A stretch of DNA of 35,836 bases from a virus: positions 1 to 35,836 of IMG/VR virus record IMGVR_UViG_3300032086_003396. The stretch is one strand, 5' to 3'. The translations under genes were made by a program, and so were the position numbers. This document shows, one piece after another, positions 10,716 to 34,577 of the stretch (the stretch's first letter is position 1; each line of letters opens with the position of its first letter). The notes beneath the pieces are model-generated. The model was not told the origin of the DNA, did not search any database, and saw nothing but the letters and a program-made list of their open reading frames with translations.

Positions 10716-11114
10716 ATGGCTTCTGGATTATCACCGCAGCTACCGCTTGTTGTAAGTGAAGTTTTTGGTGCTTATAACTTAAATACAAATTTTGAGGATT
10801 TAGCAAGACAAAACCTTAAAATGCTTATTTTGACCATCCCGGGCGAAAGGATAATGGATCCTAATTTCGGTGTTGGCTTAAGAAGGTATTTATTCGAACT
10901 AAACGGTAGCAATACTTATTCTGCCATCTCCTCAAAAATTAACGAGCAGGTTCAAAGATATTTGAATTATATCCAGATAGACGACATACAGTTTCAAATT
11001 CCTGAAGGAAACCCTGATTTGTTTCCGCATAATCTTTCTGTCTCAATATCTTTCACAATATTGCCACTTCAATTGTCGACATTGCTACAAATTGATGTTG
11101 ACCAACCTATTTAG
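10716..11114 (+). CDS. 25: gp25-like baseplate wedge protein (132 aa)
   Basis: Clear member of the GPW/gp25 family: the diagnostic block lies at residues about 34-61 with LKMLILTIPGERIMDPNFG and then VGLRRYLFE, followed by a helix (INEQVQRYLNYI) and a beta hairpin C-terminus (NLSVSISFTIL). In contractile tails gp25 joins the sheath-side baseplate core and is part of the conserved wedge with gp6 and gp7. Length agrees with T4 gp25 (132 aa). GGGAGG upstream gives a strong ribosome site. It is followed 11 bases later by the gp6-like gene, matching the P2 W-J order. Confidence 0.9.
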   Translation: MASGLSPQLPLVVSEVFGAYNLNTNFEDLARQNLKMLILTIPGERIMDPNFGVGLRRYLFELNGSNTYSAISSKINEQVQRYLNYIQIDDIQFQIPEGNPDLFPHNLSVSISFTILPLQLSTLLQIDVDQPI

Positions 11115-11125
11115 AGAAATAAATT

Positions 11126-12925
11126 ATGGCCAAAAAATTACAACCAATTGATTACACAAGTCGAGACTTTGATTCTATTCGCAGAGATTTAGAGAACTAC
11201 GCGAAAAGATACTACCCCGATTCGTACAAAGACTTTAACAAAGCCTCTTTTGGCTCCTTGATGTTGGATACAGTCTCCTACATCGGAGACATTCTATCGT
11301 TTTACTTGGATTACCAAACAAACGAATCGTTCCTAGAGACATCAATTGAATATAACAATGTTGTTCGTCTAGCGCGCCAGATGGGGTTCAAGTTAAATAC
11401 AAGCCCTTCATCCTATGGAATTTTAACTTTTTATATTCAGGTGCCCTCCGACAATAATACAGCAGGACCTAATTTAGATTATGCGCCCGTTCTTCGTGCC
11501 GGATCAATTCTATCCTCAACGGGCGGGGGTCTATACACTCTAATAGAAGATGTAGATTTCTCTGTATCAACAAACCAAGTGGTTGTAGGAACTGTTGATT
11601 CTACGACAGGAAACCCAACAAACTTTGTCATCAGAGCACAGGGTCGTGCCGTTTCCGGTAGAACCTTGTTTAAGGAAGTTGAGATTGGTAACTTCCAGAG
11701 ATTTTTAAGAGTTGATTTGGAAACCTCAAGAGTTGCAGAGGTTCTATCTGTCTCGGACTCGGAAGGGCACGAATATGTTGAGGTTGACCATCTTTCTCAA
11801 AATGTTATTTACAAAGCGATCCGCAACACGAACACAGCCACCAACTCAACAGTTGTAAATCTTCTTAAAGCGGTTCCTGTAGCAAGAAGATTCGTTGTCG
11901 AAAGAGAAGGACAAGCAACTTATTTGCAGTTTGGTTATGGTTCAGATTCAGAATTGCTTTCAAATTCAATCGCAGATCCAACGAATCTCGTTTTGGACTT
12001 AAACGGACGAGATTACATTACGGACCTAGACTTTGATCCAACGAATCTAATCAGCACAGATAAGTTTGGTATTGCCCCCTCCAACACAACCTTGAGAGTC
12101 GGCTACAGAGTCAATTTAAATAATGACGTAAATGCCGCTGTGAATACAATTGTTGGAGTTGATAGACCGCTATTTAGATTCGCATCCCAAGGATCCTTGT
12201 CGCAGGCTATTAGAAATACGGTCATTTCCTCAATAGAGGTTTTGAACGAAGAGCCATTTGTTGGCGATATTTCACTACCCTCTTCAGACGAGATTAAGCA
12301 AAGAGTCTTTGGATTCTACGCAACACAGAACAGGGCTGTAACAATTCAGGATTACCAGTCTATCTGCTATGGCATGCCAGCTAAATTTGGATCTATTAAG
12401 AGAGCGGCAGTTGTGAGGGACTTTGATGAGTTCAGAAGAAACTTAAATGTCTATGTTATTTCAGAGGACACAAGTGGAAAATTGCTTCCAGCCAACGTAA
12501 CTCTCAAAAATAACTTAAGAAATTGGCTTTTGCAGTATAAAGTAGTAAATGACACAATTGATATTTTAGATGCTCAAATTGTTAACTTTGGAATTAATTA
12601 TGTCGTTGCGGTGGATCTAAATGCAAACCGCTTTACAGTAATCAACAGAGCTAACGCAGCTTTGAGAGATTATCTTTTGAAAAACCAATATGAGATTGGC
12701 GAATCGATTTTGATAACAGATTTCTACAAAGTTCTCCAAAAGGTCAACGGAATTATCGATGTTATTGATTTGGAGATAGTTGGAAAATCTGGCGTCTCCT
12801 ACGCATCTTCTTCATTCGATTTTGAGGAACGGTTGTCGGCTGATGGACGTAGAATAGAAGGCGAAAATAACGCAATCTTTGAACTTAAGTTTCCAAATGT
12901 GGATATTAAGGGAGCTATCCAGTAA
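11126..12925 (+). CDS. 6: gp6/J-like baseplate wedge protein (599 aa)
   Basis: Baseplate J family: N-terminal IDYTSRDFDSIRRDLENY, then FGSLMLDTVSYIGDILSFY and YQTNESFLETS (within residues 5-75) are the characteristic opening of T4 gp6-like and P2 J-like proteins. A middle beta domain follows, with the usual later segment around residues 395-410 (FYATQNRAVTIQDYQSICY) and a C-terminal alpha/beta part (LQKVNGIIDVIDLEIVGKS). The length is somewhat shorter than T4 gp6 (660 aa). gp6 dimers form the ring that holds wedges together around the hub. Its stop overlaps the next start (TAATG). Confidence 0.88.
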   Translation: MAKKLQPIDYTSRDFDSIRRDLENYAKRYYPDSYKDFNKASFGSLMLDTVSYIGDILSFYLDYQTNESFLETSIEYNNVVRLARQMGFKLNTSPSSYGILTFYIQVPSDNNTAGPNLDYAPVLRAGSILSSTGGGLYTLIEDVDFSVSTNQVVVGTVDSTTGNPTNFVIRAQGRAVSGRTLFKEVEIGNFQRFLRVDLETSRVAEVLSVSDSEGHEYVEVDHLSQNVIYKAIRNTNTATNSTVVNLLKAVPVARRFVVEREGQATYLQFGYGSDSELLSNSIADPTNLVLDLNGRDYITDLDFDPTNLISTDKFGIAPSNTTLRVGYRVNLNNDVNAAVNTIVGVDRPLFRFASQGSLSQAIRNTVISSIEVLNEEPFVGDISLPSSDEIKQRVFGFYATQNRAVTIQDYQSICYGMPAKFGSIKRAAVVRDFDEFRRNLNVYVISEDTSGKLLPANVTLKNNLRNWLLQYKVVNDTIDILDAQIVNFGINYVVAVDLNANRFTVINRANAALRDYLLKNQYEIGESILITDFYKVLQKVNGIIDVIDLEIVGKSGVSYASSSFDFEERLSADGRRIEGENNAIFELKFPNVDIKGAIQ

Positions 12926-14451
12926 TGGCAATTTTAAGATATACTGCCAGTGCAGATAATACGATCACAAATGCTTTTGAAGCCGATTTGGTTACAAGAG
13001 GTACAGGCTCTAATATGGGCTATGCTGATTCACTTGAGGTCTTCTCGATCTATGGCCAAGAGTCGGGATCCAATGGACAATCACAAGAACTTTCAAGAAT
13101 TCTAATTCAATTTCCAGTAAATCAGATCTCTACTGACAGAACTGCAGGCACAATCCCAGCATCTGGTTCCGTATCGTTCTACCTTAAGATGTTCAATGCT
13201 GAACATCCATTCACGCTCCCGCAAGACTTTAATTTGGTTGTTGCTCCGATATCGCGATCTTGGTCAGAAGGCACGGGACTTGATATGGATAACTATCAAG
13301 ATATAGGTGTCTCCAATTGGTTAAAGTCTGATTCGAGCACGTCTTGGTCCAGCGTCGGAGGTGATTATCTATCTCAAGACAATTACAATGTTAGATTTGA
13401 AAAAGGTTATGAGAACCTAGAAGTCGATGTTACAACTGTTGTAGAAAACTGGATTACGGGTGCAGCTGGCGGCGAGTACAACAATTACGGATTCGGTATT
13501 CGATTGACTGCCTCACAGGAAGCTTATTTTTCATCATCTCTCGGTACAGACTCTGGCTCTGTAATCCAGAATACAGTAGGGGCAACCCAATCGTATTACA
13601 CAAAGAAATTCTTTGCTCGCTCAAGTGAGTTCTTCTTTAAGCGCCCGGTCCTTGAGGCACGTTGGGATTCCCGCACAATGGATGACAGAGAAAACTTCTT
13701 CTTCTCATCGTCCAGAGCACCTGCATCTGAAAACTTAAACACTTTGCAGCTTTACAACTACATCAAGGGTCGCCTTCGCAACATTCCATCAGTTGGCACA
13801 GGAAGCATTCTTGTTTCGTTTTACTCAAGCTCCAACGGTTCTCCGACTGGTTCAAAGTTATCTCTTCAGGCTGGCGGCAGCACCGTCTCTACGGGCGATA
13901 GAAACGCTACAGGCAGTTATGTGAGCACAGGCATCTATTCGTGCGATATATCGCTTACGGCGGCTGCTACGCCCTTACAGGAGATACACGATGTATGGCA
14001 CTTTGGTGGGGTCGAATTCTTTACTGGCTCTTTCTTCCCAGAGTTGATGCCGACTTATGACAGCGCCCCGACATTTAACAGGATTACCTCTTGTAAGAAT
14101 CTCAAAAAGATATATTCCGCAAGAGATACGGCAAGATTTAGATTTTTCGTTCGTGACAGGAATTGGTCTCCGACTATCTATACCGTCGCAACTGCCAATA
14201 ATCCAACCGACATCATCGAGAGCGCTTCATACAGCGTTTACCGAGTTACGGATAACTTGGCAGCAATTCCATATGGTACAGGATCCGACTTAAGCACTTA
14301 CTTGTCATACGATAAGGAAGGTAATTTCTTTGACTTGGACATGTCGCTTCTAGAACCAGACTACATGTATGAGATAAGATTGTCTTATTACAACGACAGT
14401 ATTGGCGACTGGCAAGAGCAACCTCAAACGTTTAAATTTCGAGTTGAATGA
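12925..14451 (+). CDS. DNRLRE-like domain baseplate/fibre protein (508 aa)
   Basis: Start overlaps the gp6 stop; AAGGGAG upstream at about 12908. Residues about 1-190 look like a DNRLRE-type beta-sandwich: LSRILIQFPVNQI, then a signature pair VDVTTVVENWITG and YGFGIRLTAS. These domains occur in surface and fibre proteins. The middle is serine/glycine/threonine-rich and beta-like (TGSILVSFYSSSNGSPTGS), and the last 100 residues read as an Ig-like strand pattern (SASYSVYRVTD, YMYEIRLSYYND, TFKFRVE). It separates gp6 from the gpI-like giant protein, so it may be a wedge-attached decoration or fibre-anchoring protein. No catalytic motif is visible. Confidence 0.6.
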   Translation: MAILRYTASADNTITNAFEADLVTRGTGSNMGYADSLEVFSIYGQESGSNGQSQELSRILIQFPVNQISTDRTAGTIPASGSVSFYLKMFNAEHPFTLPQDFNLVVAPISRSWSEGTGLDMDNYQDIGVSNWLKSDSSTSWSSVGGDYLSQDNYNVRFEKGYENLEVDVTTVVENWITGAAGGEYNNYGFGIRLTASQEAYFSSSLGTDSGSVIQNTVGATQSYYTKKFFARSSEFFFKRPVLEARWDSRTMDDRENFFFSSSRAPASENLNTLQLYNYIKGRLRNIPSVGTGSILVSFYSSSNGSPTGSKLSLQAGGSTVSTGDRNATGSYVSTGIYSCDISLTAAATPLQEIHDVWHFGGVEFFTGSFFPELMPTYDSAPTFNRITSCKNLKKIYSARDTARFRFFVRDRNWSPTIYTVATANNPTDIIESASYSVYRVTDNLAAIPYGTGSDLSTYLSYDKEGNFFDLDMSLLEPDYMYEIRLSYYNDSIGDWQEQPQTFKFRVE

Positions 14452-14461
14452 TAATTAAAGT

Positions 14462-17400
14462 ATGAGTCTTAAAAAGTATTTTGAAATTACCGAGAACATC
14501 AAGGCGCTCTCCGGTAAAACAGCAGATGATATAGGCTCTCAAGTAGAGTCTGTTGCTTATCATGAACAGGATATCCTTAACGAGGAAAGGTTTATACCAA
14601 GAGTAAACTTTTCTGACCCGGCTAATTTTGCTCGTTATGGTTCAGCTGTAGAATACTACGACCAGTCAATAAAAAGAATTTATAACGAATATCCTTATGA
14701 CGGCTCCTTAAGGGAAAAACTAGAGTGGCGTAATAAATCGACTTACATTGATTTACACATCTTCGACAACCTTTACCCAAGAACAAATGGTTACGTTATC
14801 TTATCCGCTGATGGGTGGGGTACGCAAACTTCAACAGCAGATGGCTACGGACTTTCAAGTGATTTAGAATACATCTATGTAGAAGGTGGACCAAATCCAA
14901 ACCCAAACGGTAATTCGCCAAAATCTACAAAGTTTACGGGCTCAAACTACTACGAACCAGATAAAAACAGAGGCTCAAATTTAGAATTTGATTTGGCATC
15001 TCAAGGTGCTTCATTAGAGTTCTGGCTTAACAAGTCTACGTTCATTACGGGCTTAACAGAAAAAGAGGTTATTTTTGATCTTTGGAATGGAGAGCTATCT
15101 TCTTCTGCTACTTACCTTCGCTTTAGGTTGGAACTAACAGGTGCGGCTGATGGATCTGATCCTTTCCTGCTGACGGTTCTCTCCGGCACCACTGGTTTTT
15201 CACAGCAAAGTATCGCTGCTTCTACTTTTACGACTGCTTCGGTAGCTGACGGAAATTGGCACCATTATGCTGTTTCAGTCAAGTCGGCTTCCGCGGGCGT
15301 CACGACAAGATTTTATGTTGATGGAAATCTAAACAACGAATCAACATTAGGAACCACGGGAATCAACAATACAGATAGCTCTGCTTTAAGAGCTTACGTT
15401 GGCGCTCTCATAACGTCCCCATCTGGATCGTCAGCCGCAGTCGGTGCCGGTAAATTATCTGGCTCTATTGACGAATTGAGATATTGGAAGACACAGAGGT
15501 CTTCTAAAGAAATCGGGCGCTTCTGGTTTACACAGGTGGGAGGAGGCGTCAACACAGACCCAACTCCATTTACGACAACGGAGGAGTCAGCAAACGTAGA
15601 TCTTGGTGTATATTTCAAGTTCAATGAAGGTATTACAGGCAGAACTTCAACAGATAGCACAGTTCTAGATTACTCTGGTCGTTTTTCAAATGGTGCTTGG
15701 ACTGGTTACGGAGCCAATTCTAGAAACACCGGATCTGCTATAGTCTTATCAAATGCGGCCATAAGTGAGTTCCGCGACCCGATTATTTATTCTTTCCATC
15801 CGGATGTTGTATCGCTGTCGGCAGATCTAGAAACTTCGGGTTCTGCGCACGATGTAAACAATAACGCATCCATTTACAATTCAATACCTTCTTGGATTAC
15901 AGAAGAGGATGTAGAGGGTACGAGCAATGTCAAGTATCTCACCCAGATAATTTCAAGCTATTTTGATACCTTGCATCTTCAAATTGAAAGTTTGAATCAT
16001 CTTAAGGACATTCAATACCCAAGCGGTAGCGATAAACCACTTCCATTCGCGGAAAAACTTCTTTCTTCTTATGGGTTTGTAGCACCAGAGATTTTCCTAG
16101 ATGCCGATGTTCTAGAGAAGTTGGCAGACAGAAGTGAAGATAGGGTTTATGAGAAATCTCTTCACGATGTTAAAAACATTATTTACCAAAACATCTACAA
16201 TAACCTTAACTACATTTATAAGTCAAAGGGAACTGAAAAAGCATTTAGAAACCTTATCCGCTGTTTTGGTATTGACGATGAATTAGTCAAATTCAACATT
16301 TATGCAAACAATGTTGAATATGAGATGCGAAACAATAGAAGAAGTATTATTGTTGGAGATAAGTTTGCTAACTTTAACACCGCGGCAGGGCAGAGCGCTA
16401 CGGTTTACAATTACACTGACGCATCAAATGCTAATTCTGTTGGTTTTATTACATCAAGTTCGGGCTTGACAGACGGTTATGCTACGACACTAGAAGCTGA
16501 AATTCTATTCCCTAAAAAGTTAGACGAAACCTCTATCGTTTATGTTGACACAAACACAATTAGCGCATCTCTATTTGGTGTCCACGGCACAGTAGGTTCG
16601 GGAACAGACACAACTTGGGCTTCTCCTGATGCGGTAAACTTCCAAGTTTTTGCTGTTAGAGACGAGCTAAAGTCAACAAATGTTAAGTTTGTTTTGACCG
16701 GTACCGCTGGTGGCTATGTCCCAGAAATTTCATCTTCCTTATATGAGGAAGTGTATGACAACACTAGATGGAATTTAGCTGTAAGAGTCAAGCCAGAGCA
16801 GTTCCCCTTAAAAGGATTTGTATCTGGTACAAACTCTAATTATGTTGTTGAACTTCATGGTGTCCAAGTGGAGGCCGGCGAGGTCCTTCATGAGTTCACA
16901 GTCTCTGGTACTATAGCGAGTCCTCCCGCAGGTTTTGTGACAGGGAGTAAGAGAGTATTTGTTGGTGCGCACAGAACTAACTTTACGGGCGCCCTTCTCC
17001 AGACATCGGATGTCAAAGTAAATGCATGCCGCTACTGGCTAGATTACATTGAAGATGGCGCCTTAAGAGGGCACTTGCTCGATACAGAAAATTATGGAGC
17101 CGCCCAGCCGCATCTTTACGCTTATCCTTTTGATACAACCGCCTCATACGGAGAAATTACAAAGTTTGATACTCTAGTATTTGACTGGGAGTTCTTGACT
17201 AATACTGGCTCCAATGCTAGCGGACAGTTTATCGTTGACGATATAAGTTCTGGTTCTGCTGCACTAACAAGATTTGGAGATTTAGGAAATATCCTAAACA
17301 AGCAGTACACTGCTAGAGGAGACTTTTTCCAAGCATCTTCTACAAATGCAATTGATAAAGACTTTGTTGTTTCTTCAAAATTGAATCTTCCTGAAAATAT

Positions 17401-20400
17401 TCAAGCGGAAGATATGGTTAGGGTTCTCTCCACTGAAGATCAGGATGTATTCACAACTGAAACGCGTCCTATAAATTACTTCTTCGCATTTGAAAAGAGC
17501 ATGTACCAGACCATTTCGGAAGAGATGGTGAATTACTTTGCTACCTTAAAGGATCTACACAACCTTATAGGTGACCCTGTAGAACGCTGGCGACCTGAAT
17601 ACAAACAAATGAAGTTCATGCGCCAGAAGTTCTTTGAGAAGGTCGGCAATGACGAACTAGATTTCGATAAATTCTATGAGTTCTACAAGTGGTTTGATTC
17701 TTCTTTATCACTTATGTTGGGGCAATTGGTACCAGCTTCTGCTGACTTCTCCGACAACGTAAAAACAGTTATTGAGAATCACGTCCTAGAGAGACCAAAA
17801 TATAGAAATATCTTCCCATTCTTGGAGCGCGTCGGGGCGACTGATATAGAGGGAACTGTAATACCCCCCATTCCGCCTTCTGAAGAGACAATTCCTGGCG
17901 GTCCCGAAGTGCCTGGGGGATCCAACTATGGTGGCGACACTAACGCTAGTTCAGAAATAGAATCGGGACATTATGAGGCTCCTCCTACGGATGGCTCTGA
18001 TACTGAAAACAGACCATGGCAAAAATATAGAAGAGAAAAGACTGGTGATAGAGAGGGTATTTTTGAAGTAGTAAAGTCAACGTATGACAGATACACTAAA
18101 TCTACTGCCAAACTTAAGACAAACTATTCTTTCCCCTACGACGGCGTAACAAAGAATTCAAATTATGATCCTAATTTTGTTTTCCAAGCAACGCAGCCTT
18201 ACGGTCCTACAATCACGGCAACAAATATTCCTAAAAACATTATGTTGTCATTCGATATTGATGTTGAAGAACTCTTAAACACCACAGATATTAGAAACCC
18301 GAGAGGAAAAACGAAACTTTCTTACGGGATCAACCCCTCTATAAACAAGTCTGGATCAGAAGATCTAAACTACTATGGTAAAAGTTATGGTCCATTCAGC
18401 CTCTATAGCTCATCCGTAACCACAGGGTACAACAGTGAGGTTGTCCAGAACTACAAATCTGGAACGATGGTTACCAACCTTCACCACGATTTGGTTTTTG
18501 ATACAGGAATTCCGGCACAGGGTCCATTTACAGAGAAGTTTGTTGGCGGTAGATACTACCGACACACAGAATTGAATGATGGAAATGATACGAGAGAAAC
18601 TAGAGCAGAAGGTTTCCGATTGGCGCTTGGACTTAACCCTACAAGCTCTAATATCCCTGCTGGCGCTTCTGGTGCCCTGGGAGTGGTTCCGCCAAACTAC
18701 CCGTTCCTTGACTCACCGGCTGGCTCCGCGCCTTTAGGGTGGCTCCCAGCGCTTCCTACGGCACAGCGCCTCCGCGACGAAACCGCAAAGCGCCCGGTGA
18801 ACATCAAGAACATTTTGATGACGACAGCGTCTGTTGGAACGCGCCTGTCTGGAACGATCGTACATAGCAAAATCGGTAACTACCAAAAGAACTATCAGGT
18901 TGTCCAGACAGCTGGTAGAACTACTAACGACCTCTTCTTCCGTGAGCAAACGTTTAATTTCGCGCCAAACCCAGAAACCTTGGCTACTAGAGGCAGATTG
19001 CCGCTTACGTCTTCAACGCAAAATGTTGGTGGGGATTTAGACTACGCGCTCCCAGATAGATCGGGCCCCAACTCTAATGAAACAGTGTTTGTTAACTTGT
19101 TCTCATCCCCTGGTTCATACGAGGTATTATCGAGAGGCTACAGGGACCCGGCTCACGAAGAGCTATCGGTTTACAATGCTTCACCATATCGCAATCTCGG
19201 TGTAATCACTAGAGGACAGCAGGAATCTGCCTCTTTGGATCCTGTAGAGGCTAATACGATTGCAGTAGTAGACCAGATTAATAAGAATCGCGGTCTAAAC
19301 CAAAGAGCAGCACTCCACGCTGGACCGTTTGGTTCTGATGCCGCATATGGTTCGGTTCCAGAGTTGACATACGTTACAGTACCATCCTGGCACAAGACAA
19401 ACAGAAACCGCCGCCGCAGAATAGAGTTGTCTGGAGCAGCATACATTACGGCTTCCGTATACGATAACCTCTTTGTTCAGCACGCAATCCCACGTTCTGC
19501 ACAACAATACTCTTGGGTGACTGCATCATTGGCAGAGGGGCAGATTATCTATGGCAACGATAGACCATCATGCTTTAGTGCAAGTGTCTTAAGTCAGTTG
19601 ATAGTCTCTGGAACAAGTTATGATGATTTAACTTTTGTTGGATTAACAACTCGTATTTTGGATCCCGTAACGGCGTCTAGCCATATTCAAGGCTTACCAC
19701 TTGATGTTGCTAACTATGCTCAAGCATATGACAATGGTGATTGGACCGGTGGCGCCCCTGTATTCCAGCCTGGGACAGATTATTTCAATTTCTTGATTAC
19801 TACTCGCAATGGACCATACGGATACCCAACTTGGAAACAAATCCGTACTGGCGAGACCAAGATCGCGCGAAAGTTAAGAGAAACGAATAAGATTGGTTAC
19901 GCTATTCCGCCAAAGAGATTGGTAAACAACAATGGAGCGGTAATTCCTAAACGACCAAATTCTTTCGTTGACTTCTACGAAGCGCCTTATTCAATAAACT
20001 CTTCTCCAATAACATTTATTTTTGAAGACAACACAGAAGAGTCGGAGACCAAAAACAACATTGAGGTATCTGTTCCATTCAGAAACCAAATTGATTACTT
20101 CTCTCACAATGAATTGAACAATTTTTATGACCTTAAGTCTGACGTTTCAAATTTACAGTCGTACAAAACAGTGTTGGATTTCACAATCAGCAGCAGCTAC
20201 AGCACGGCGGTTACTTACACCGAAGCTTTGTATCCTGCTGATATTAACATGTTCAACAACATTGTTCGCAGAAGAACGAAATTCTCTATTACCAACATTT
20301 GGGATGATAATCGTAGAGATCGCTCTCTAACGTATGGAGGTAACGCTAATTCGCAAGGAATAACCTTCTTTACTTCTGCTTCTACGTGGCCATTGGATGC

Positions 20401-22810
20401 GCATTTGAATTTCGCGCTCACCACCTCCGTTAATGTTAATGATGGCGCCGGGGAACTTCAGAATGCATACACCAGATTTGCCAACAATACGGATAGAATT
20501 AGACCCGGCGTTACATATGCCGATAGGGTTCCTGCTGGGTCTGCGTCCCTTGGTGGCAATCAAACATTTGCTGGTGATGCTCTATGGGAGGCTGGAACAC
20601 AGTCGGGCAAGAAGCCTTACGAAAGTTACTCAACATATTCACAACACATTGCCAGAGTAGGAAAAGACCACTCAATCGTTCCTGAATTCAGAATTAGTGA
20701 ATTGTTCGAGACTTACAGTGAAGAAAAGGGAGGCGACTTTTTAGCCGATGTAGATAATATATTTAATCTAACAGGTGCTCACATATACGATAGCGCTCAA
20801 ACTGATTTCTTCAAGACATACACAAACTCGGATTTCTTAAAGTATTTCTCCGTAATTGATGACGATCTTAACGATCAACGTTCCGGAGACTTAAAGATTC
20901 AAAGAGATAGGATTTCACTTCGCTGCAATGCGATGGTTAAATTCTTGCCATACAAGGGATTCTATCCTGCAGAAAGAATTTTGGAGTTGGGAACTTTGTT
21001 CTCACAATCTTATGGTACTGTTGTCTTATCAAAGTCTGGCTCCGCACCCTCACAGGCATCGCTCAAGATACTTTTGGAGCCCATGATGTCTCCTGGCATA
21101 CTTTGTAATACAATTAAATCAGGAATTGCGGTAAGTTATCCAATTTTGTCGAATACCTCATCGAATGTGGACGATATTATTGCAAATCATGCCCCTCCTA
21201 GAAACACGTCCGCAAATACTAGATTATTTGAAGGAGTCGTCAATTATGACCGAGGTATTACAAATTCTGGAAACCCTAGCACGCAGGACGGATTCCTTTT
21301 CCAAGAACTGCCTTTCGAAACGCTGTACCGTCCGGAAACATATTTGGGACCAACTTTCTTAACAGGTTCGGGTGCAATTTATGATAATGCTGTATCACCC
21401 GTGACTATAGTAGATAATGGTAGTACGGGACCAATTGCCATTAAATTTGTTGATGGTAAGCGCTTATATCGCCATGCAATCGATAACTTCTTATGTGCTA
21501 CTACTGAATTCTTTACTAATCAGCCGGCAGCATTCTTATCTAGCAGAGAAGATCAGTTTAATGAAGTAGTAAGCGGCTCAACGTATGAGATGGAACTGGA
21601 GATTTTCAGAACGCAAAACGCTCTCAGTGGAGTAATTCAGGTTGCCACAGCGTCATTTAGCATGTATGACAGAGAATCAGCATATGGCTATCCAATTAAC
21701 GATGCGTCCGGATTCGCTACTTTTGACCACGTAACTCCTCCATATTTTTCTGGGTCCGCAAAAGTAACAATTTCTTACACTGCCACCGCTACAGGGCGCC
21801 CCACATTGGAAGATATTTTGTCTAACGCTTCCTACACCTACAGTCGCGATACAGCGGCGGGTTCAACCTCGCCTGCCTCATCGCGTATGCAGATAGATGC
21901 TAGCATTAATTTCAGTGACTACTTTAATACCGTCCCTAATGGAACAGCTACACAATCAAAAACATGGCTAATTCAAAGTAAGTTTGAAACACCAGTCTTG
22001 AACTTTGCTGGTATCACACCAACCAGAACAACATCAAGTGCTGAAATAGGAGCCGGTCTTTCATCGGCAGATCAGATTAAGACTGGCGGAATGTGGCATC
22101 TTTATGGAAATATTCCTGAAAGCTCTAGAGAAGGAATTTTTATCTCCCTCAGAGATACAAGAGAACTTTCACTAGCAGATGTTTGTGGATTCCCTACTGG
22201 TAAGAACGAAAGAGTCGGAGACGTTAAGGAGTCGAATATACTTGAAGAGGCAGTTGTTGCAGTTCCATTCAAGACTGTCAATAACAGAAGAAAGTTTTTT
22301 GGTATTAACAAAAACAATTCGGAATACAATAACATTAAGAAAAATCTTGAGAAGTATGTGTTCCCGCCAAAGTTTGACTTCGCAACAAACAATACGGTAG
22401 ATCCAATTTTGATGTATGCATTTGAGTTCTCTGCAAAGGTTACACAACAAGACATCGCAGATATGTGGCAAAACTTGCCACCCGATATCAATGAGAAGTT
22501 TGAACAAAAAGAAGTTATCATTGATGATAAACAGGTTCTCGATCTATTAGTTAAGAACGCGGAAGACATTCAGTGGCTCGTATTCAAGGTCAAGAAGCGC
22601 GCCAACAAGTCCTTTGAGAAGTACAGAAGATCTTTGGTAACAGAGGATACAAGCGCTATTGAAGATGATATAGGACCATACTCTTACAACTGGCCATACG
22701 ATTACTTCTCGCTCGTAGAACTAGTTAAGATTGACGAAACAGTGCAGTACGCATCTAGCGATGTATTGCCGGATAATACAATAACGCCTGGCATCGAGGA
22801 TCTCGAATAA
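14462..22810 (+). CDS. Giant baseplate/tail protein with tail-protein-I-like segment and two LamG-like domains (2782 aa)
   Basis: An 8.3 kb continuous frame. Order seen: N-terminal wedge-like region (about 1-130); a LamG/concanavalin-like fold at about 172-415 (LEFWLNK, WHHYAVSVKS, RFYVDGNLNNE, GSIDELRYWK); a helical region at about 480-625 ending in YKSKGTEKAFRNLIRCFGI, the pattern found in P2 gpI-like and large baseplate proteins; a second LamG-like fold at about 670-910 (TRWNLAVRVKPE, RVFVGAHRTNF, CRYWLDYIEDG); a helical, aromatic-rich block (about 1000-1125); a Pro/Gly/Ser-rich linker (about 1132-1180); then about 1600 residues of mostly beta-like sequence without recognised motifs. Its place after gp25 and gp6 fits a gp7/gpI-type wedge protein. 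LamG folds suggest glycan or surface binding. Functions inferred. Confidence 0.66.
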   Translation: MSLKKYFEITENIKALSGKTADDIGSQVESVAYHEQDILNEERFIPRVNFSDPANFARYGSAVEYYDQSIKRIYNEYPYDGSLREKLEWRNKSTYIDLHIFDNLYPRTNGYVILSADGWGTQTSTADGYGLSSDLEYIYVEGGPNPNPNGNSPKSTKFTGSNYYEPDKNRGSNLEFDLASQGASLEFWLNKSTFITGLTEKEVIFDLWNGELSSSATYLRFRLELTGAADGSDPFLLTVLSGTTGFSQQSIAASTFTTASVADGNWHHYAVSVKSASAGVTTRFYVDGNLNNESTLGTTGINNTDSSALRAYVGALITSPSGSSAAVGAGKLSGSIDELRYWKTQRSSKEIGRFWFTQVGGGVNTDPTPFTTTEESANVDLGVYFKFNEGITGRTSTDSTVLDYSGRFSNGAWTGYGANSRNTGSAIVLSNAAISEFRDPIIYSFHPDVVSLSADLETSGSAHDVNNNASIYNSIPSWITEEDVEGTSNVKYLTQIISSYFDTLHLQIESLNHLKDIQYPSGSDKPLPFAEKLLSSYGFVAPEIFLDADVLEKLADRSEDRVYEKSLHDVKNIIYQNIYNNLNYIYKSKGTEKAFRNLIRCFGIDDELVKFNIYANNVEYEMRNNRRSIIVGDKFANFNTAAGQSATVYNYTDASNANSVGFITSSSGLTDGYATTLEAEILFPKKLDETSIVYVDTNTISASLFGVHGTVGSGTDTTWASPDAVNFQVFAVRDELKSTNVKFVLTGTAGGYVPEISSSLYEEVYDNTRWNLAVRVKPEQFPLKGFVSGTNSNYVVELHGVQVEAGEVLHEFTVSGTIASPPAGFVTGSKRVFVGAHRTNFTGALLQTSDVKVNACRYWLDYIEDGALRGHLLDTENYGAAQPHLYAYPFDTTASYGEITKFDTLVFDWEFLTNTGSNASGQFIVDDISSGSAALTRFGDLGNILNKQYTARGDFFQASSTNAIDKDFVVSSKLNLPENIQAEDMVRVLSTEDQDVFTTETRPINYFFAFEKSMYQTISEEMVNYFATLKDLHNLIGDPVERWRPEYKQMKFMRQKFFEKVGNDELDFDKFYEFYKWFDSSLSLMLGQLVPASADFSDNVKTVIENHVLERPKYRNIFPFLERVGATDIEGTVIPPIPPSEETIPGGPEVPGGSNYGGDTNASSEIESGHYEAPPTDGSDTENRPWQKYRREKTGDREGIFEVVKSTYDRYTKSTAKLKTNYSFPYDGVTKNSNYDPNFVFQATQPYGPTITATNIPKNIMLSFDIDVEELLNTTDIRNPRGKTKLSYGINPSINKSGSEDLNYYGKSYGPFSLYSSSVTTGYNSEVVQNYKSGTMVTNLHHDLVFDTGIPAQGPFTEKFVGGRYYRHTELNDGNDTRETRAEGFRLALGLNPTSSNIPAGASGALGVVPPNYPFLDSPAGSAPLGWLPALPTAQRLRDETAKRPVNIKNILMTTASVGTRLSGTIVHSKIGNYQKNYQVVQTAGRTTNDLFFREQTFNFAPNPETLATRGRLPLTSSTQNVGGDLDYALPDRSGPNSNETVFVNLFSSPGSYEVLSRGYRDPAHEELSVYNASPYRNLGVITRGQQESASLDPVEANTIAVVDQINKNRGLNQRAALHAGPFGSDAAYGSVPELTYVTVPSWHKTNRNRRRRIELSGAAYITASVYDNLFVQHAIPRSAQQYSWVTASLAEGQIIYGNDRPSCFSASVLSQLIVSGTSYDDLTFVGLTTRILDPVTASSHIQGLPLDVANYAQAYDNGDWTGGAPVFQPGTDYFNFLITTRNGPYGYPTWKQIRTGETKIARKLRETNKIGYAIPPKRLVNNNGAVIPKRPNSFVDFYEAPYSINSSPITFIFEDNTEESETKNNIEVSVPFRNQIDYFSHNELNNFYDLKSDVSNLQSYKTVLDFTISSSYSTAVTYTEALYPADINMFNNIVRRRTKFSITNIWDDNRRDRSLTYGGNANSQGITFFTSASTWPLDAHLNFALTTSVNVNDGAGELQNAYTRFANNTDRIRPGVTYADRVPAGSASLGGNQTFAGDALWEAGTQSGKKPYESYSTYSQHIARVGKDHSIVPEFRISELFETYSEEKGGDFLADVDNIFNLTGAHIYDSAQTDFFKTYTNSDFLKYFSVIDDDLNDQRSGDLKIQRDRISLRCNAMVKFLPYKGFYPAERILELGTLFSQSYGTVVLSKSGSAPSQASLKILLEPMMSPGILCNTIKSGIAVSYPILSNTSSNVDDIIANHAPPRNTSANTRLFEGVVNYDRGITNSGNPSTQDGFLFQELPFETLYRPETYLGPTFLTGSGAIYDNAVSPVTIVDNGSTGPIAIKFVDGKRLYRHAIDNFLCATTEFFTNQPAAFLSSREDQFNEVVSGSTYEMELEIFRTQNALSGVIQVATASFSMYDRESAYGYPINDASGFATFDHVTPPYFSGSAKVTISYTATATGRPTLEDILSNASYTYSRDTAAGSTSPASSRMQIDASINFSDYFNTVPNGTATQSKTWLIQSKFETPVLNFAGITPTRTTSSAEIGAGLSSADQIKTGGMWHLYGNIPESSREGIFISLRDTRELSLADVCGFPTGKNERVGDVKESNILEEAVVAVPFKTVNNRRKFFGINKNNSEYNNIKKNLEKYVFPPKFDFATNNTVDPILMYAFEFSAKVTQQDIADMWQNLPPDINEKFEQKEVIIDDKQVLDLLVKNAEDIQWLVFKVKKRANKSFEKYRRSLVTEDTSAIEDDIGPYSYNWPYDYFSLVELVKIDETVQYASSDVLPDNTITPGIEDLE

Positions 22811-23730
22811 TGGAATTCTTTAACAAAAAAGAAGAAGTCTTGGAAGTTGTACTCACAAACTATGGAAGAGATAAGTTAGCTGCCGGTCAATTTAACCCAA
22901 CCTTTTATGCCTTCTTCGATGATGATATTCTGTATGATGTAAGTGGCTCTGGATACACCGAGGATCAGAACCTCGCTGAATCCAGAATTCAAAGCGACAC
23001 TCCAAAGATAAAGATTATCCCGACCAGAGAGGGCGCCGAAACAAGAGTCAATAGATTTGTTGATAATGTTTCTTCTTCTTTCAATGCCGTGATTGGCGGG
23101 CACACATCAGACCCAGCCAATAACGTTGAGATCTTTCAAGAACAAACTTATGGCGATAAAGGTAAGTTAGACGCATACCCGCTCGGTCGTTCGTCTTATA
23201 ACACACAAAATGCCCCTGCTTGGCAGATGGAAATACTTTCTAACCCTACCTCATCTTTGGGGCAGAGATTTCTAAACGAAGATGATTTTATACAGCCTAT
23301 CCCACAGATTGATATAACAATTGATTACGAGACATTTTTCAAGCAGGGAGAGATAACATCTGATTCTATTACTGGATATCTCGGTGACCCTCCGGGTAAC
23401 TTCTTTTTAGCTTTGAAAGAAAATTATTTAATGATAGAGCTTTTAGAGAGTAATACGCCTTTTGAAAAAGAAAACTTTGAAATTGAAGTTTTTCTATCTG
23501 GCTCCGATGGGCAGTATGTTCAATTAAGCTCTACCCCGCAGAGCGATACCGAATTCATTGCACCCACAGAGGGTAACATTGAATATTGGATGAATGTTTT
23601 GGTGGATAATGAAATCCCACAAGAGGTTATCAGGGAACTAGATATTAACGATAATGCTGTCTCTACGAATGCCAGCAGAATCAAACTTAATAGAGATCTA
23701 TACTCTACAGAAAATGAGGAGCCTTGCTAA
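22810..23730 (+). CDS. Virion structural protein, N-terminal module shared with the gene at 29125 (306 aa)
   Basis: Start overlaps the previous stop (TAATG) with GAGG upstream. The first 35 residues (EEVLEVVLTNYGRDKLAAG, then FYAFFDDDILYD) closely match the first 40 residues of the 316-aa protein encoded at 29125, identifying a small shared family. The rest is acidic and beta-like, with SIQ-poor, glutamate- and asparagine-rich stretches; no catalytic or membrane signature is seen. Located between the giant tail protein and two ~890-aa structural proteins, it probably joins the same particle substructure. The exact role is unknown. Confidence 0.62.
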   Translation: MEFFNKKEEVLEVVLTNYGRDKLAAGQFNPTFYAFFDDDILYDVSGSGYTEDQNLAESRIQSDTPKIKIIPTREGAETRVNRFVDNVSSSFNAVIGGHTSDPANNVEIFQEQTYGDKGKLDAYPLGRSSYNTQNAPAWQMEILSNPTSSLGQRFLNEDDFIQPIPQIDITIDYETFFKQGEITSDSITGYLGDPPGNFFLALKENYLMIELLESNTPFEKENFEIEVFLSGSDGQYVQLSSTPQSDTEFIAPTEGNIEYWMNVLVDNEIPQEVIRELDINDNAVSTNASRIKLNRDLYSTENEEPC

Positions 23731-29124: not shown

Positions 29125-30075
29125 ATGGGATTCTTAGACAATTCAGGTGATATTATTTTAGACGCTGTTTTAACCGATTTAGGTAGAAAGCGCCTAGCAG
29201 AAGGAAATGGCAGATTTAAAATTACAAAGTTTGCTTTAGGAGATGATGAGATAGATTACGGTCTATACGATAAAAACCATCCAAGTGGCTCATCTTACTA
29301 CGATCTAAACATTCTACAAACTCCTGTTTTGGAATCATTCACCAATAACATGTCAAGCATGAAGTCCCGATTGCTTTCTTATTCTAGAAGTGACCTTCTT
29401 TACTTGCCGGTGATTCTAACCAATACCGACCTTCAACCATTCTTATCGGGACTAAGTTCCTACGTTGTGTTGGTTGACGAGACTACGGTTGATGCCCTAA
29501 CACCTACAAACGGCTCTTCATTGGACGATGGCCTTCTAAACGGTTACAGACCAGATCAGGGTGCGCGCTACGTAGCAGCAGACCAGGGGCTGGATACTAC
29601 AGAGGTAAGCAATCAGCAGACGCTAGCAGATATTGACTCCACTCTTGTTGAGACACAATATTTTGTTCAGATCGACAACCGTCTAGGTCAGCTACAAAGT
29701 AGAGGCAGCCTTGCTGAAGGGCAGAACGCCAGAATTCAGCCTTCTTCTATAGATGATGACAACATCGCAACTTACATTTTTTCCACAAATGATAATACGG
29801 GAATCATCAGTTCTCCGGGCGCCGGTGCTGCATCATCCATAAACGGACCTCTAGGAACTAGAGTTCAATTTAAGATTGCGGCATCATTAGACTTAAGAAC
29901 AAGTACATTCTTATTTAATCAGTTGGGTTCTGCCGGAACCTCTAACATCACTAGTGGCACCAATACTTTGCTGGCTGCAAACTACAGATTTATTGATTCA
30001 ACAGTAAGAATCTCGGGTGTCTCTACGGGTTATACTCTGGATGTTCCAGTAAGATTTGTTAAGAAGACTAGTTAA
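29125..30075 (+). CDS. Virion structural protein, paralogous N-terminus to the gene at 22810 (316 aa)
   Basis: AAGAGGA at 29110 gives a good ribosome site. The N-terminus (DIILDAVLTDLGRKRLAEG, then FKITKFALGDDEIDY) parallels the 22810 product in the order VLT, GR, LA, G, F, FA, DD, I, Y. The central part is polar with many Asp, Ser and Thr; the C-terminal third is beta-like (TRVQFKIAASLDLRTSTFLF, trimmed; YTLDVPVRFVKK). No catalytic motif. I remember similar short-module proteins from marine T4-like phage structural blocks, but no function. Probably a baseplate or fibre-adaptor subunit by context. Confidence 0.62.
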   Translation: MGFLDNSGDIILDAVLTDLGRKRLAEGNGRFKITKFALGDDEIDYGLYDKNHPSGSSYYDLNILQTPVLESFTNNMSSMKSRLLSYSRSDLLYLPVILTNTDLQPFLSGLSSYVVLVDETTVDALTPTNGSSLDDGLLNGYRPDQGARYVAADQGLDTTEVSNQQTLADIDSTLVETQYFVQIDNRLGQLQSRGSLAEGQNARIQPSSIDDDNIATYIFSTNDNTGIISSPGAGAASSINGPLGTRVQFKIAASLDLRTSTFLFNQLGSAGTSNITSGTNTLLAANYRFIDSTVRISGVSTGYTLDVPVRFVKKTS

Positions 30076-33061: not shown

Positions 33062-33661
33062 ATGTATAATACCCCACCCGCCAGTTCTGGCGTCTATACT
33101 ATAACAAACATTATAAATGGCAAATACTATGTCGGATCTTCTAATAATATTAAAAGAAGATGGCGCCATCATAAAGATACTTTAAGAAGAGGTATCCACC
33201 CAAACAAATATCTACAACGAGCATTTGATAAATATGGTGAAGACAACTTCCTATTTGAAATAGTAGAACTGACAGAAGAATACATCTTAAAAGAACAAGA
33301 AATATTAGACCGGAACTTTGAAGCCACTTATAATATCGCTATTATGGCTGATGCCCCTATGACGGGGAAGAAACACGCCGAGAAAGTAAAAAAACTGCTG
33401 TCTAAAAAACTCTCTGGCAAAAATCACCCTCACTATGGAAAGCCGGTTGATATAGAGTGGAGAAGGAAAATAAGCCTCAAAAAGAAAAAGAGAACGGACG
33501 AAGAAGAAATACAAATCTATAATCGCTGGAAGAGCGGAGAAACAAAGAACGCGATCGCTAAAAGCCTAGGGTGCCACCCAACTACGATAAAAAGAGTTAT
33601 TGACAGAGTTGAAAAGTTTTGCTACCATTCAAAAGATGAGCAATCAAACAAAAAAACTTAA
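33062..33661 (+). CDS. GIY-YIG homing endonuclease, free-standing (199 aa)
   Basis: Selfish DNA endonuclease gene. Residues about 8-90 form the GIY-YIG nuclease: GVYTITN (Gly10-Tyr12), YYVGSSNNIKRRW (Tyr23-Gly25 and Arg32), His37, and LKEQEILDR with Glu78 or Glu80 as the metal-binding acid. A middle part (about 100-145) with SGKNHPHYGKP resembles a NUMOD3 DNA-binding repeat, and the C-terminus (about 160-190) has a helix-turn-helix (AIAKSLGCHPTTIKRVIDR). GAGGAAAG precedes the ATG. The gene lies between the resolvase and primase genes with its own leader, and its last 26 bases overlap the primase start, consistent with insertion of a mobile endonuclease gene. Confidence 0.85.
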   Translation: MYNTPPASSGVYTITNIINGKYYVGSSNNIKRRWRHHKDTLRRGIHPNKYLQRAFDKYGEDNFLFEIVELTEEYILKEQEILDRNFEATYNIAIMADAPMTGKKHAEKVKKLLSKKLSGKNHPHYGKPVDIEWRRKISLKKKKRTDEEEIQIYNRWKSGETKNAIAKSLGCHPTTIKRVIDRVEKFCYHSKDEQSNKKT

Positions 33662-34577
33662 TATTCTCCAACAGGTTCTTGGTGCCTACAGAAAATCAAA
33701 CAATGAGTTTCTTTTTCACTGCCCTTATTGTAATCATCATAAAAAGAAAATGTCTATCAACATTGATAAGGGATATTTCAAATGTTGGACGTGTGATACA
33801 CGAGGTAAAAATCTTTACAGGATAATACGAAAGTATGGAACCTACAATCACAAGTCTCAATGGCGTGATATCACAGGCACCGTTGATTATGAGAAGCTTG
33901 AAGATCTTTTTGCCGAGAAAGTAGAAGAAAAACAAATACTTGATATGCCCGAAGGTTTCGTGTCTTTGGCGAATAAAGATATTCCACCGACCGGATTTGC
34001 GGCGCGAAACTATCTACGAAAGCGCGGCATTTCCAAACAAGATATTGTTTGGTGGAAGATGGGCTATTGTAGCAGCGGAGAGTACGAAGGACGCGTTGTG
34101 ATTCCTTCGTTCGATGATGAAGGCGATCTAAACTACTTTATCTCTCGGTCGTATGACAAGAAAGCATATCCAAAGTACAAGAACCCGCCGGCAAGCAAGA
34201 ACATTATATTCAACGATTTGTTTGTGGATTGGAGTTCGGACATTATTTTGGTGGAGGGTGTGTTTGATGCTGTGGTTGCCGGTCGTAATTCTGTACCTCT
34301 TCTTGGATCCACATTAAATCAAAACTCTTCTCTTCTACAAAAGATTGTAAAAGAAGACGCAGGCGTTTATATCGCTTTGGATCCCGACGCAAGAAAGAAA
34401 GAGTTGGAGATCATCAAAACTTTGTTGGATTTTGATATTGAAGTTTGGAAAGTTGATATCGGAGAGAACGAAGATGTTGGGTCAATGACGAAGGGTAACT
34501 TCCAGAAATGTCTGGACAAAGCGACCCTTATCACATCAGACAACTATTTACTGTTGACGCTCGCTATGTCGGTGTAA
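33636..34577 (+). CDS. DnaG-type DNA primase with zinc ribbon and TOPRIM domain (313 aa)
   Basis: Synthesises RNA primers for lagging-strand replication. The zinc ribbon is CPYC (Cys29, Cys32) with CWTC (Cys50, Cys53). The TOPRIM domain has ILVEGVFDAV (Glu207), PLLGSTL and ALDPDA (Asp249, Asp251), the acidic metal-binding set. YLRKRGISKQDIVWWKMGY and GRVVIPSFDDEG form the usual connecting region. The frame can be read from a TTG at 33600, but the ATG at 33636 is preferred because the protein then begins a normal distance before the zinc ribbon; the ribosome site is weak and lies inside the homing endonuclease gene, so translation may be coupled to it. Length is close to T4 gp61 (342 aa), a functional equivalent. 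Confidence 0.82.
   Translation: MSNQTKKLNILQQVLGAYRKSNNEFLFHCPYCNHHKKKMSINIDKGYFKCWTCDTRGKNLYRIIRKYGTYNHKSQWRDITGTVDYEKLEDLFAEKVEEKQILDMPEGFVSLANKDIPPTGFAARNYLRKRGISKQDIVWWKMGYCSSGEYEGRVVIPSFDDEGDLNYFISRSYDKKAYPKYKNPPASKNIIFNDLFVDWSSDIILVEGVFDAVVAGRNSVPLLGSTLNQNSSLLQKIVKEDAGVYIALDPDARKKELEIIKTLLDFDIEVWKVDIGENEDVGSMTKGNFQKCLDKATLITSDNYLLLTLAMSV

Follow-up and report, generated by a model that had tools for sequence, protein, structure and literature searches.

In phage T4 the baseplate wedge initiator gp7, a large multidomain protein, is encoded in the slot after gp6, and in phage P2 the slot after gpJ is taken by gpI (Tail_P2_I, PF09684), a protein of 176 aa. The same kind of slot holds proteins annotated as hypothetical in the Microcystis phage Mel-JY01 (WWT39511.1, 1336 aa), in Immutovirus (QQO92079.1, 1265 aa) and, directly after gp25 and gp6, in cyanophage P-RSM6 (AGH56931.1, 8573 aa). 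In the evolved Dit of lactococcal skunaviruses, carbohydrate-binding inserts in the distal-tail protein promote adsorption (PMC10688798).

The gene described here lies at positions 14462 to 22810 of the window (the whole 35.8-kb stretch of viral DNA that was analysed) and encodes a protein of 2782 aa. It shares with T4 gp7 the slot after gp6, the character of a large multidomain, putative wedge protein and a KG motif in register with YSTKGIEASYKFLFK, a match scored by profiles at E 0.01-0.8 and not significant alone; it is 2.7 times longer than gp7, and its C-terminal half is without known kin. With P2 gpI it shares the slot after gpJ, and its HKGTIGAIRRVVEPLGY motif aligns weakly in the gpI register (E 0.0008, prob 24%), but gpI is far too short for LamG domains and its Pfam model gave no match. 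With the Mel-JY01 and Immutovirus proteins it shares the gene slot and a homologous core (residues 432-1113), the Mel-JY01 protein aligning through the second of its two LamG regions (LamG-2); no counterpart of the first (LamG-1) was found in either protein, and neither has a long C-terminal scaffold. The P-RSM6 protein carries the KGT motif IKDFYLSKGTKTAAQYLFKILFG at residue 711, but is far larger, had no detectable LamG domain and showed no significant homology to the window protein (E 0.25). As with evolved Dit, domains are inserted in a distal-tail or baseplate protein of some relatives and absent in others; unlike Dit, which belongs to siphophages, the family here has multiple sites, up to 4 modules per protein and nested LamG domains. 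Sequences of this family have already been deposited without function (e.g. A0A1B1IUQ9 and A0A0F7L9Z0, uncharacterised marine-virus proteins), and the papers searched on LamG in phage baseplates held no description of it. New here is the distinction between LamG-1, which is resident and slowly evolving, and extra LamG modules that are inserted at recurrent sites in relatives.

Reading frame and gene order

The gene and its upstream neighbours are as follows.
10716..11114, + strand: gp25/gpW baseplate wedge protein, context (PF04965, E 1.3e-11)
11126..12925, + strand: gp6/gpJ-like baseplate wedge protein, context (phrog_219, E 6e-19; tblastn to phages, ~30% identity over 99%)
12925..14451, + strand: 508-aa gene between gp6 and the gp7-slot gene, context (similar-size ORF in relatives)
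14462..22810, + strand: whole gene, putative 2782-aa gp7/gpI-slot baseplate wedge protein with LamG domains (ORF, 56 relatives, gene order behind gp25 and gp6)

The ORF runs from an ATG at 14462 to a stop at 22810 without interruption. It had been described as a single 2782-residue protein, and it is one: dozens of independent contigs preserve an open, collinear frame. Direct matches to the protein were found in 56 IMG/VR loci (best-segment identity 39-91%), in most of which the frame is unbroken over the sequence available; because these loci encode relatives, the ORF is not a chance frame. Split ORFs in three relatives (L019, L028 and L046) are probably assembly or frameshift errors. A search with a profile of the core returned at least 477 related stretches. 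A tblastn search of 50,697 phage records with the protein gave no match, nor did a PHROGs scan with the single sequence; a PHROGs scan of 37 family members gave stray matches only, and PDB sequence searches with the single sequence and with a profile found no meaningful relative. In a Foldseek search against BFVD, the same-family proteins A0A1B1IUQ9 and A0A0F7L9Z0 matched nearly the whole modelled N-terminal part at 36-56% identity.

The preliminary description had also counted the protein among the larger phage tail proteins, which was not borne out. Its relatives range from 2783 to more than 4300 aa, with closed ORFs down to 1562 aa in the wider family, and because the gp7-slot gene of P-RSM6 (L088:5908-31629) encodes 8573 residues, a length of 2782 is unexceptional for the slot. 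Giant gp7-slot proteins may be a wider cyanophage feature. The shortest closed ORF seen (1562 aa, 48% identity) belongs to L114 (CP070664.1), located in the 2.8-Mb MAG chromosome of a WOR-3 bacterium, and is either part of a prophage or of a phage contig binned into this MAG. A gp23 search of the MAG gave no match, but gave none in control genomes either and so does not show that the gene is absent.

A late sigma factor-like gene, gp25 and gp6 all lie upstream of the 2782-aa gene in the window. With gp25/gpW and gp6/gpJ ahead of it, the gene therefore occupies the gp7/gpI slot, one 508-aa gene intervening. An ORF of ~500-550 aa was found at the position of the latter in nearly all relatives whose locus extends there. 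The 508-aa gene had no convincing family match; we take its start (DNTITNAF...) to be reminiscent of DNRLRE-type domains. gp25 was present in all 9 of 9 further relatives' records. Among 11 relatives whose records were searched, 6 have both a gp23-type capsid gene (E about 1e-59 to 1e-62) and a gene for the tail sheath; the four longest records (148-185 kb) are among these 6. The phage is therefore assigned to the contractile phages of the T4 superfamily, an assignment made on the relatives' records, the window itself being a fragment.

Probable wedge part and resident jelly rolls

The protein was divided into the following parts.
14600..14797, + strand: putative N-terminal wedge piece, residues 47-112 (weak 18-column resemblance to Mel-JY01, conservation)
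14906..15637, + strand: LamG-1, resident LamG/pentraxin-like jelly roll, residues 149-392 (Pfam PF13385, AlphaFold2, PDB Z 17.8)
15779..16336, + strand: probable wedge core helices, residues 440-625 (hhalign to the Mel-JY01 family; helices at low pLDDT)
16205..16270, + strand: KGT motif, residues 582-603, LNYIYKSKGTEKAFRNLIRCFG (in-register match to gpI and T4 gp7)
16382..17389, + strand: LamG-2, ConA-like jelly roll within the wedge core, residues 641-976 (AlphaFold2, PDB Z 14.9)
17459..17797, + strand: probable C-terminal wedge helices, residues 1000-1112 (alignment with Mel-JY01)
17798..18163, + strand: variable proline/glycine-rich linker holding site S1, residues 1113-1234 (conservation drop, insertions)
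18164..22807, + strand: clade-specific C-terminal scaffold with no fold assigned, residues 1235-2782 (no relatives among the ORFs compared; low AlphaFold2 confidence; no PDB match)

The preliminary description had proposed a wedge segment at about residues 480-625 between two LamG/ConA-like folds, followed by a long C-terminus. This overall architecture stood, with domain coordinates correct to within about 25-65 residues, but the wedge fold was not confidently predicted. In hhalign, the family profile aligned with 17 Mel-JY01-type proteins over columns about 432-1113 (prob 99.4, E 1.5e-21), and the Immutovirus protein aligned with residues 456-616 (E 1e-10); in the respective genomes the genes for these proteins follow gp6 at 1.4-2.4 kb. 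The C-terminal wedge helices end at an ENHVLERP boundary common to Mel-JY01. Near the N-terminus, residues 47-64 (NFSDPANFARYGSAVE) weakly resemble Mel-JY01 residues 291-308 (18 columns, E 0.005). LamG-1 lies between this piece and the core, and profile comparison found no counterpart of it in the Mel-JY01 family.

The KGT motif matched both reference families in register, gpI at the E value given above with a probability of only 24%, and T4 gp7 at E 0.01-0.02 (prob 2-3%); hhalign to T4 gp7 alone was not significant (E 0.81). Both alignments pair the motif YKSKGTEKAFRNLI with HKGTIGAIRRVV and YSTKGIEASYKFLF. The wedge windows ranked first of 37 windows against gpI and gp7 alike, all 37 having been taken from the present family and that of Mel-JY01; the control windows are few and have common ancestry with the test set. 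The Pfam Tail_P2_I model (PF09684) gave no match in the window. AlphaFold2, run on residues 1-1112 (mean pLDDT 58.6), modelled the jelly rolls well and the wedge helices poorly, the helices at 447-466, 489-516, 544-555 and 567-600 being nearly all below pLDDT 50. Taken with the gene order, the homology to the Mel-JY01 family and the weak in-register KGT match make the wedge identity of residues 432-1112 likely, not proven.

A long, modular, LamG-bearing protein whose C-terminus has no assigned fold might also be an adhesin or tail fibre unconnected with the wedge, whose gene happens to lie beside the baseplate genes, and both the low confidence of the wedge fold and the silence of the Pfam gpI model would suit such a protein. 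We nevertheless give this very little credence, since residues 432-1113 match by profile the gp7-slot proteins of Mel-JY01 and relatives, the KGT motif falls in the gpI/gp7 register, and, among the combinations of ORF and library that were scanned, none of the window's other genes scored as gp7/gpI.

Structure prediction bore out both jelly rolls, which had been placed at about residues 172-415 and 670-910. LamG-1 matched Pfam Laminin_G_3 (PF13385) at residues 177-351 (E 7.4e-11, 42.9 bits against a cut-off of 27.6), as did 28 of 37 family members. It was modelled with a pLDDT of about 70-89 over ~171-350, and in comparison with PDB structures residues 108-426 gave Z scores up to 17.8 (PAPP-A2, pentraxins). 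Across the wider family it was found in 80 of 82 loci. LamG-2 was recognised by fold: its strands span residues 675-859, with a pLDDT mostly 71-91 over 631-870, and residues 641-976 gave Z 14.9 to 8i5a (a domain of N-acetyl-beta-phenylalanine acylase), followed by dimethylformamidase. A LamG profile was marginal on this second region in 4 divergent relatives (i-E 0.003-0.009) and did not match this region in the window.

The remainder of the protein had been called beta-rich, a characterisation that the analysis did not establish: the model of residues 1235-2430 (mean pLDDT 46.9) is a mixture of short helices and strands, is not interpretable and matched no PDB structure. Within the clade, identity over the last ~1670 residues is about 45-70% in 1250-1700, 2050-2150 and 2550-2750 and about 30-50% elsewhere. 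A test for an origin of this part by gene fusion gave no match among the ORFs of Mel-JY01, Immutovirus, LR756508 and the window.

LamG cassettes in relatives

Much of the added length of the relatives consists of further LamG modules. Each relative carries 0-4 of these at recurrent sites, sometimes within LamG-1, and Pfam marked five Laminin_G_3 stretches in L020 and five in L048, LamG-1 counted. The inserts at residue 1515 were used to build a LamG profile, with which inserts were mapped in all loci. Where inserts are long their alignment is uncertain, and the sites of a few modules were assigned by hand from mapped flanks. Five sites were located on the window protein.
17858..18061, + strand: cassette site S1, residues ~1133-1200 (LamG in 7 of 34 compared proteins, none in the window)
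18575..18577, + strand: cassette site S2, residue ~1372 (LamG in L027, L036 and L026; empty in the window)
19004..19006, + strand: cassette site S3, residue ~1515 (LamG in 17 of 34 compared proteins, none in the window)
19430..19462, + strand: cassette site S4, residues ~1657-1667 (LamG in 6 of 34 compared proteins, none in the window)
19691..19786, + strand: cassette site S5, residues ~1744-1775 (LamG in 9 of 34 compared proteins, none in the window)

In seven loci (L034, L042, L056, L128, L133, L160 and L176, of which L128 and L034 are on one contig) LamG-1 itself is split by a complete nested LamG module. The window protein and its nearest relatives have no cassette at any site. Because the window copy is cassette-free, LamG-1 and LamG-2 are the only domains to which a claim of glycan binding by the window's own baseplate can refer.

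The modules and the backbone have changed independently. Over 225 same-site pairs, mean identity was 0.68 for the wedge, 0.59 for LamG-1, 0.56 for LamG-2 and 0.32 for the module, and the correlation with wedge identity was 0.70 for LamG-1, 0.87 for LamG-2 and 0.28 for the module. LamG-1, which is near-universal, and LamG-2 are fixed parts of the wedge that evolve in step with it; conservation of this kind does not look like that of host-range receptors, for which the inserted modules, absent from the window protein, are the variable candidates. Module change is decoupled from the backbone: at S3, L036 and L038 are 85% identical in the wedge and 35% in the module, and L047 and L030 are 84% and 30% identical. 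Very close pairs retain similar modules (L036/L027, 88%; L025/L023, 96%), which shows that modules are not replaced at once.

On the backbone tree, S1, S3, S4 and S5 each need 5 changes of presence (gain or loss), and relatives that carry a module can have close kin that lack it. In the module tree LamG-1 forms one side of a starred branch and has short internal branches, and the inserted modules are widely spread and not cleanly sorted by site, with starred branches forcing more than one origin for the S1, S3 and nested modules; both trees are quick searches with several long branches. For 16 of 59 modules the nearest kin lies at another site, at 45% identity at best. The tree and these modules argue for some exchange. 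Low module identity may also reflect, in part, fast drift in place and not exchange.

The LamG fold also binds proteins or plays structural roles, and Ig-like domains decorate many phage proteins. The LamG domains, resident and inserted, might accordingly be decorations, structural or weakly sticky, which lend the baseplate stiffness or spacing but no specific host recognition, the sites being tolerant loops. That LamG-1 and LamG-2 keep pace with the wedge, LamG-1 in nearly every locus, is consistent with this, as is the location of the inserts, which lie in the linker, itself variable, or at a few positions along the C-terminal scaffold. The modules, however, diverge far more than the backbone and do so independently, a behaviour that suits parts under changing selection better than spacers, and we hold decoration to be a possible but rather unlikely account.

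Proposed role and downstream genes

On balance the gene product is probably the wedge protein of the gp7/gpI slot in an uncultivated T4-superfamily clade, and the LamG cassettes of its relatives are probably adhesive. From homology and gene order, residues 47-112 and 432-1112 would join gp6 and gp25 in the wedge. Two LamG/ConA-like jelly rolls are built into this part, with LamG-1 following the N-terminal piece and preceding the core and LamG-2 lying inside the core; the long clade-specific scaffold comes after. In relatives the scaffold, the linker and sometimes a loop of LamG-1 accept extra LamG modules at the recurrent sites; the window protein is the minimal form. Each of the six wedges would then display its set of LamG domains at the baseplate rim, and the displayed modules may bind surface glycans or other host-surface ligands and be swapped to track hosts. 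We read the protein, by analogy with evolved Dit proteins, as a wedge scaffold that may take exchangeable adhesin cassettes; adhesion is inferred for the relatives' cassettes by extension. A bolder version, in which the wedge protein of this clade, an abundant one, is itself the host-recognition device, with up to about six LamG domains per wedge and at least five docking sites (one kind inside the resident LamG) between which cassettes are exchanged to shift host or glycan range, is speculative, and we are inclined to doubt it.

Should the cassettes bind receptors, the adhesion type of these viruses might be read, as from a bar code, from the gp7-slot gene alone, and modular host-range change would be located in a central structural protein. 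The family is large, as the core-profile matches indicate, and its phages have only distant kin in culture, such as Mel-JY01 and Immutovirus, the latter on Flavobacterium sp. LMO8. Its range of 0 to 4 modules on a near-constant backbone offers a natural series for testing the role of LamG domains on virions.

Several further structural-looking genes without assignment lie downstream of the 2782-aa gene, and separate fibres may therefore also be present. The LamG domains of neurexin and agrin bind proteins. By the same token, the LamG modules might dock other virion proteins, such as separate receptor-binding fibres, to the baseplate and not contact the host, and the downstream genes could supply such partners. 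This is unlikely in our judgement, as module number varies from 0 to 4 with no known matching change in fibre genes, which were not compared in detail; the reading of the cassettes as adhesins is preferred.

Two of the downstream genes, at 22810-23730 and 29125-30075, have a common N-terminal motif (VLTNYGRDKLAAG / VLTDLGRKRLAEG) that we take to be reminiscent of tail-collar fibre proteins, and are candidate separate fibre or connector genes. Further downstream, a GIY-YIG-like homing endonuclease-type ORF was assigned by eye at 33062-33661 of the window, and is adjoined by a primase-like gene at 33600-34577 with a CHC2 zinc finger (E 2e-7).
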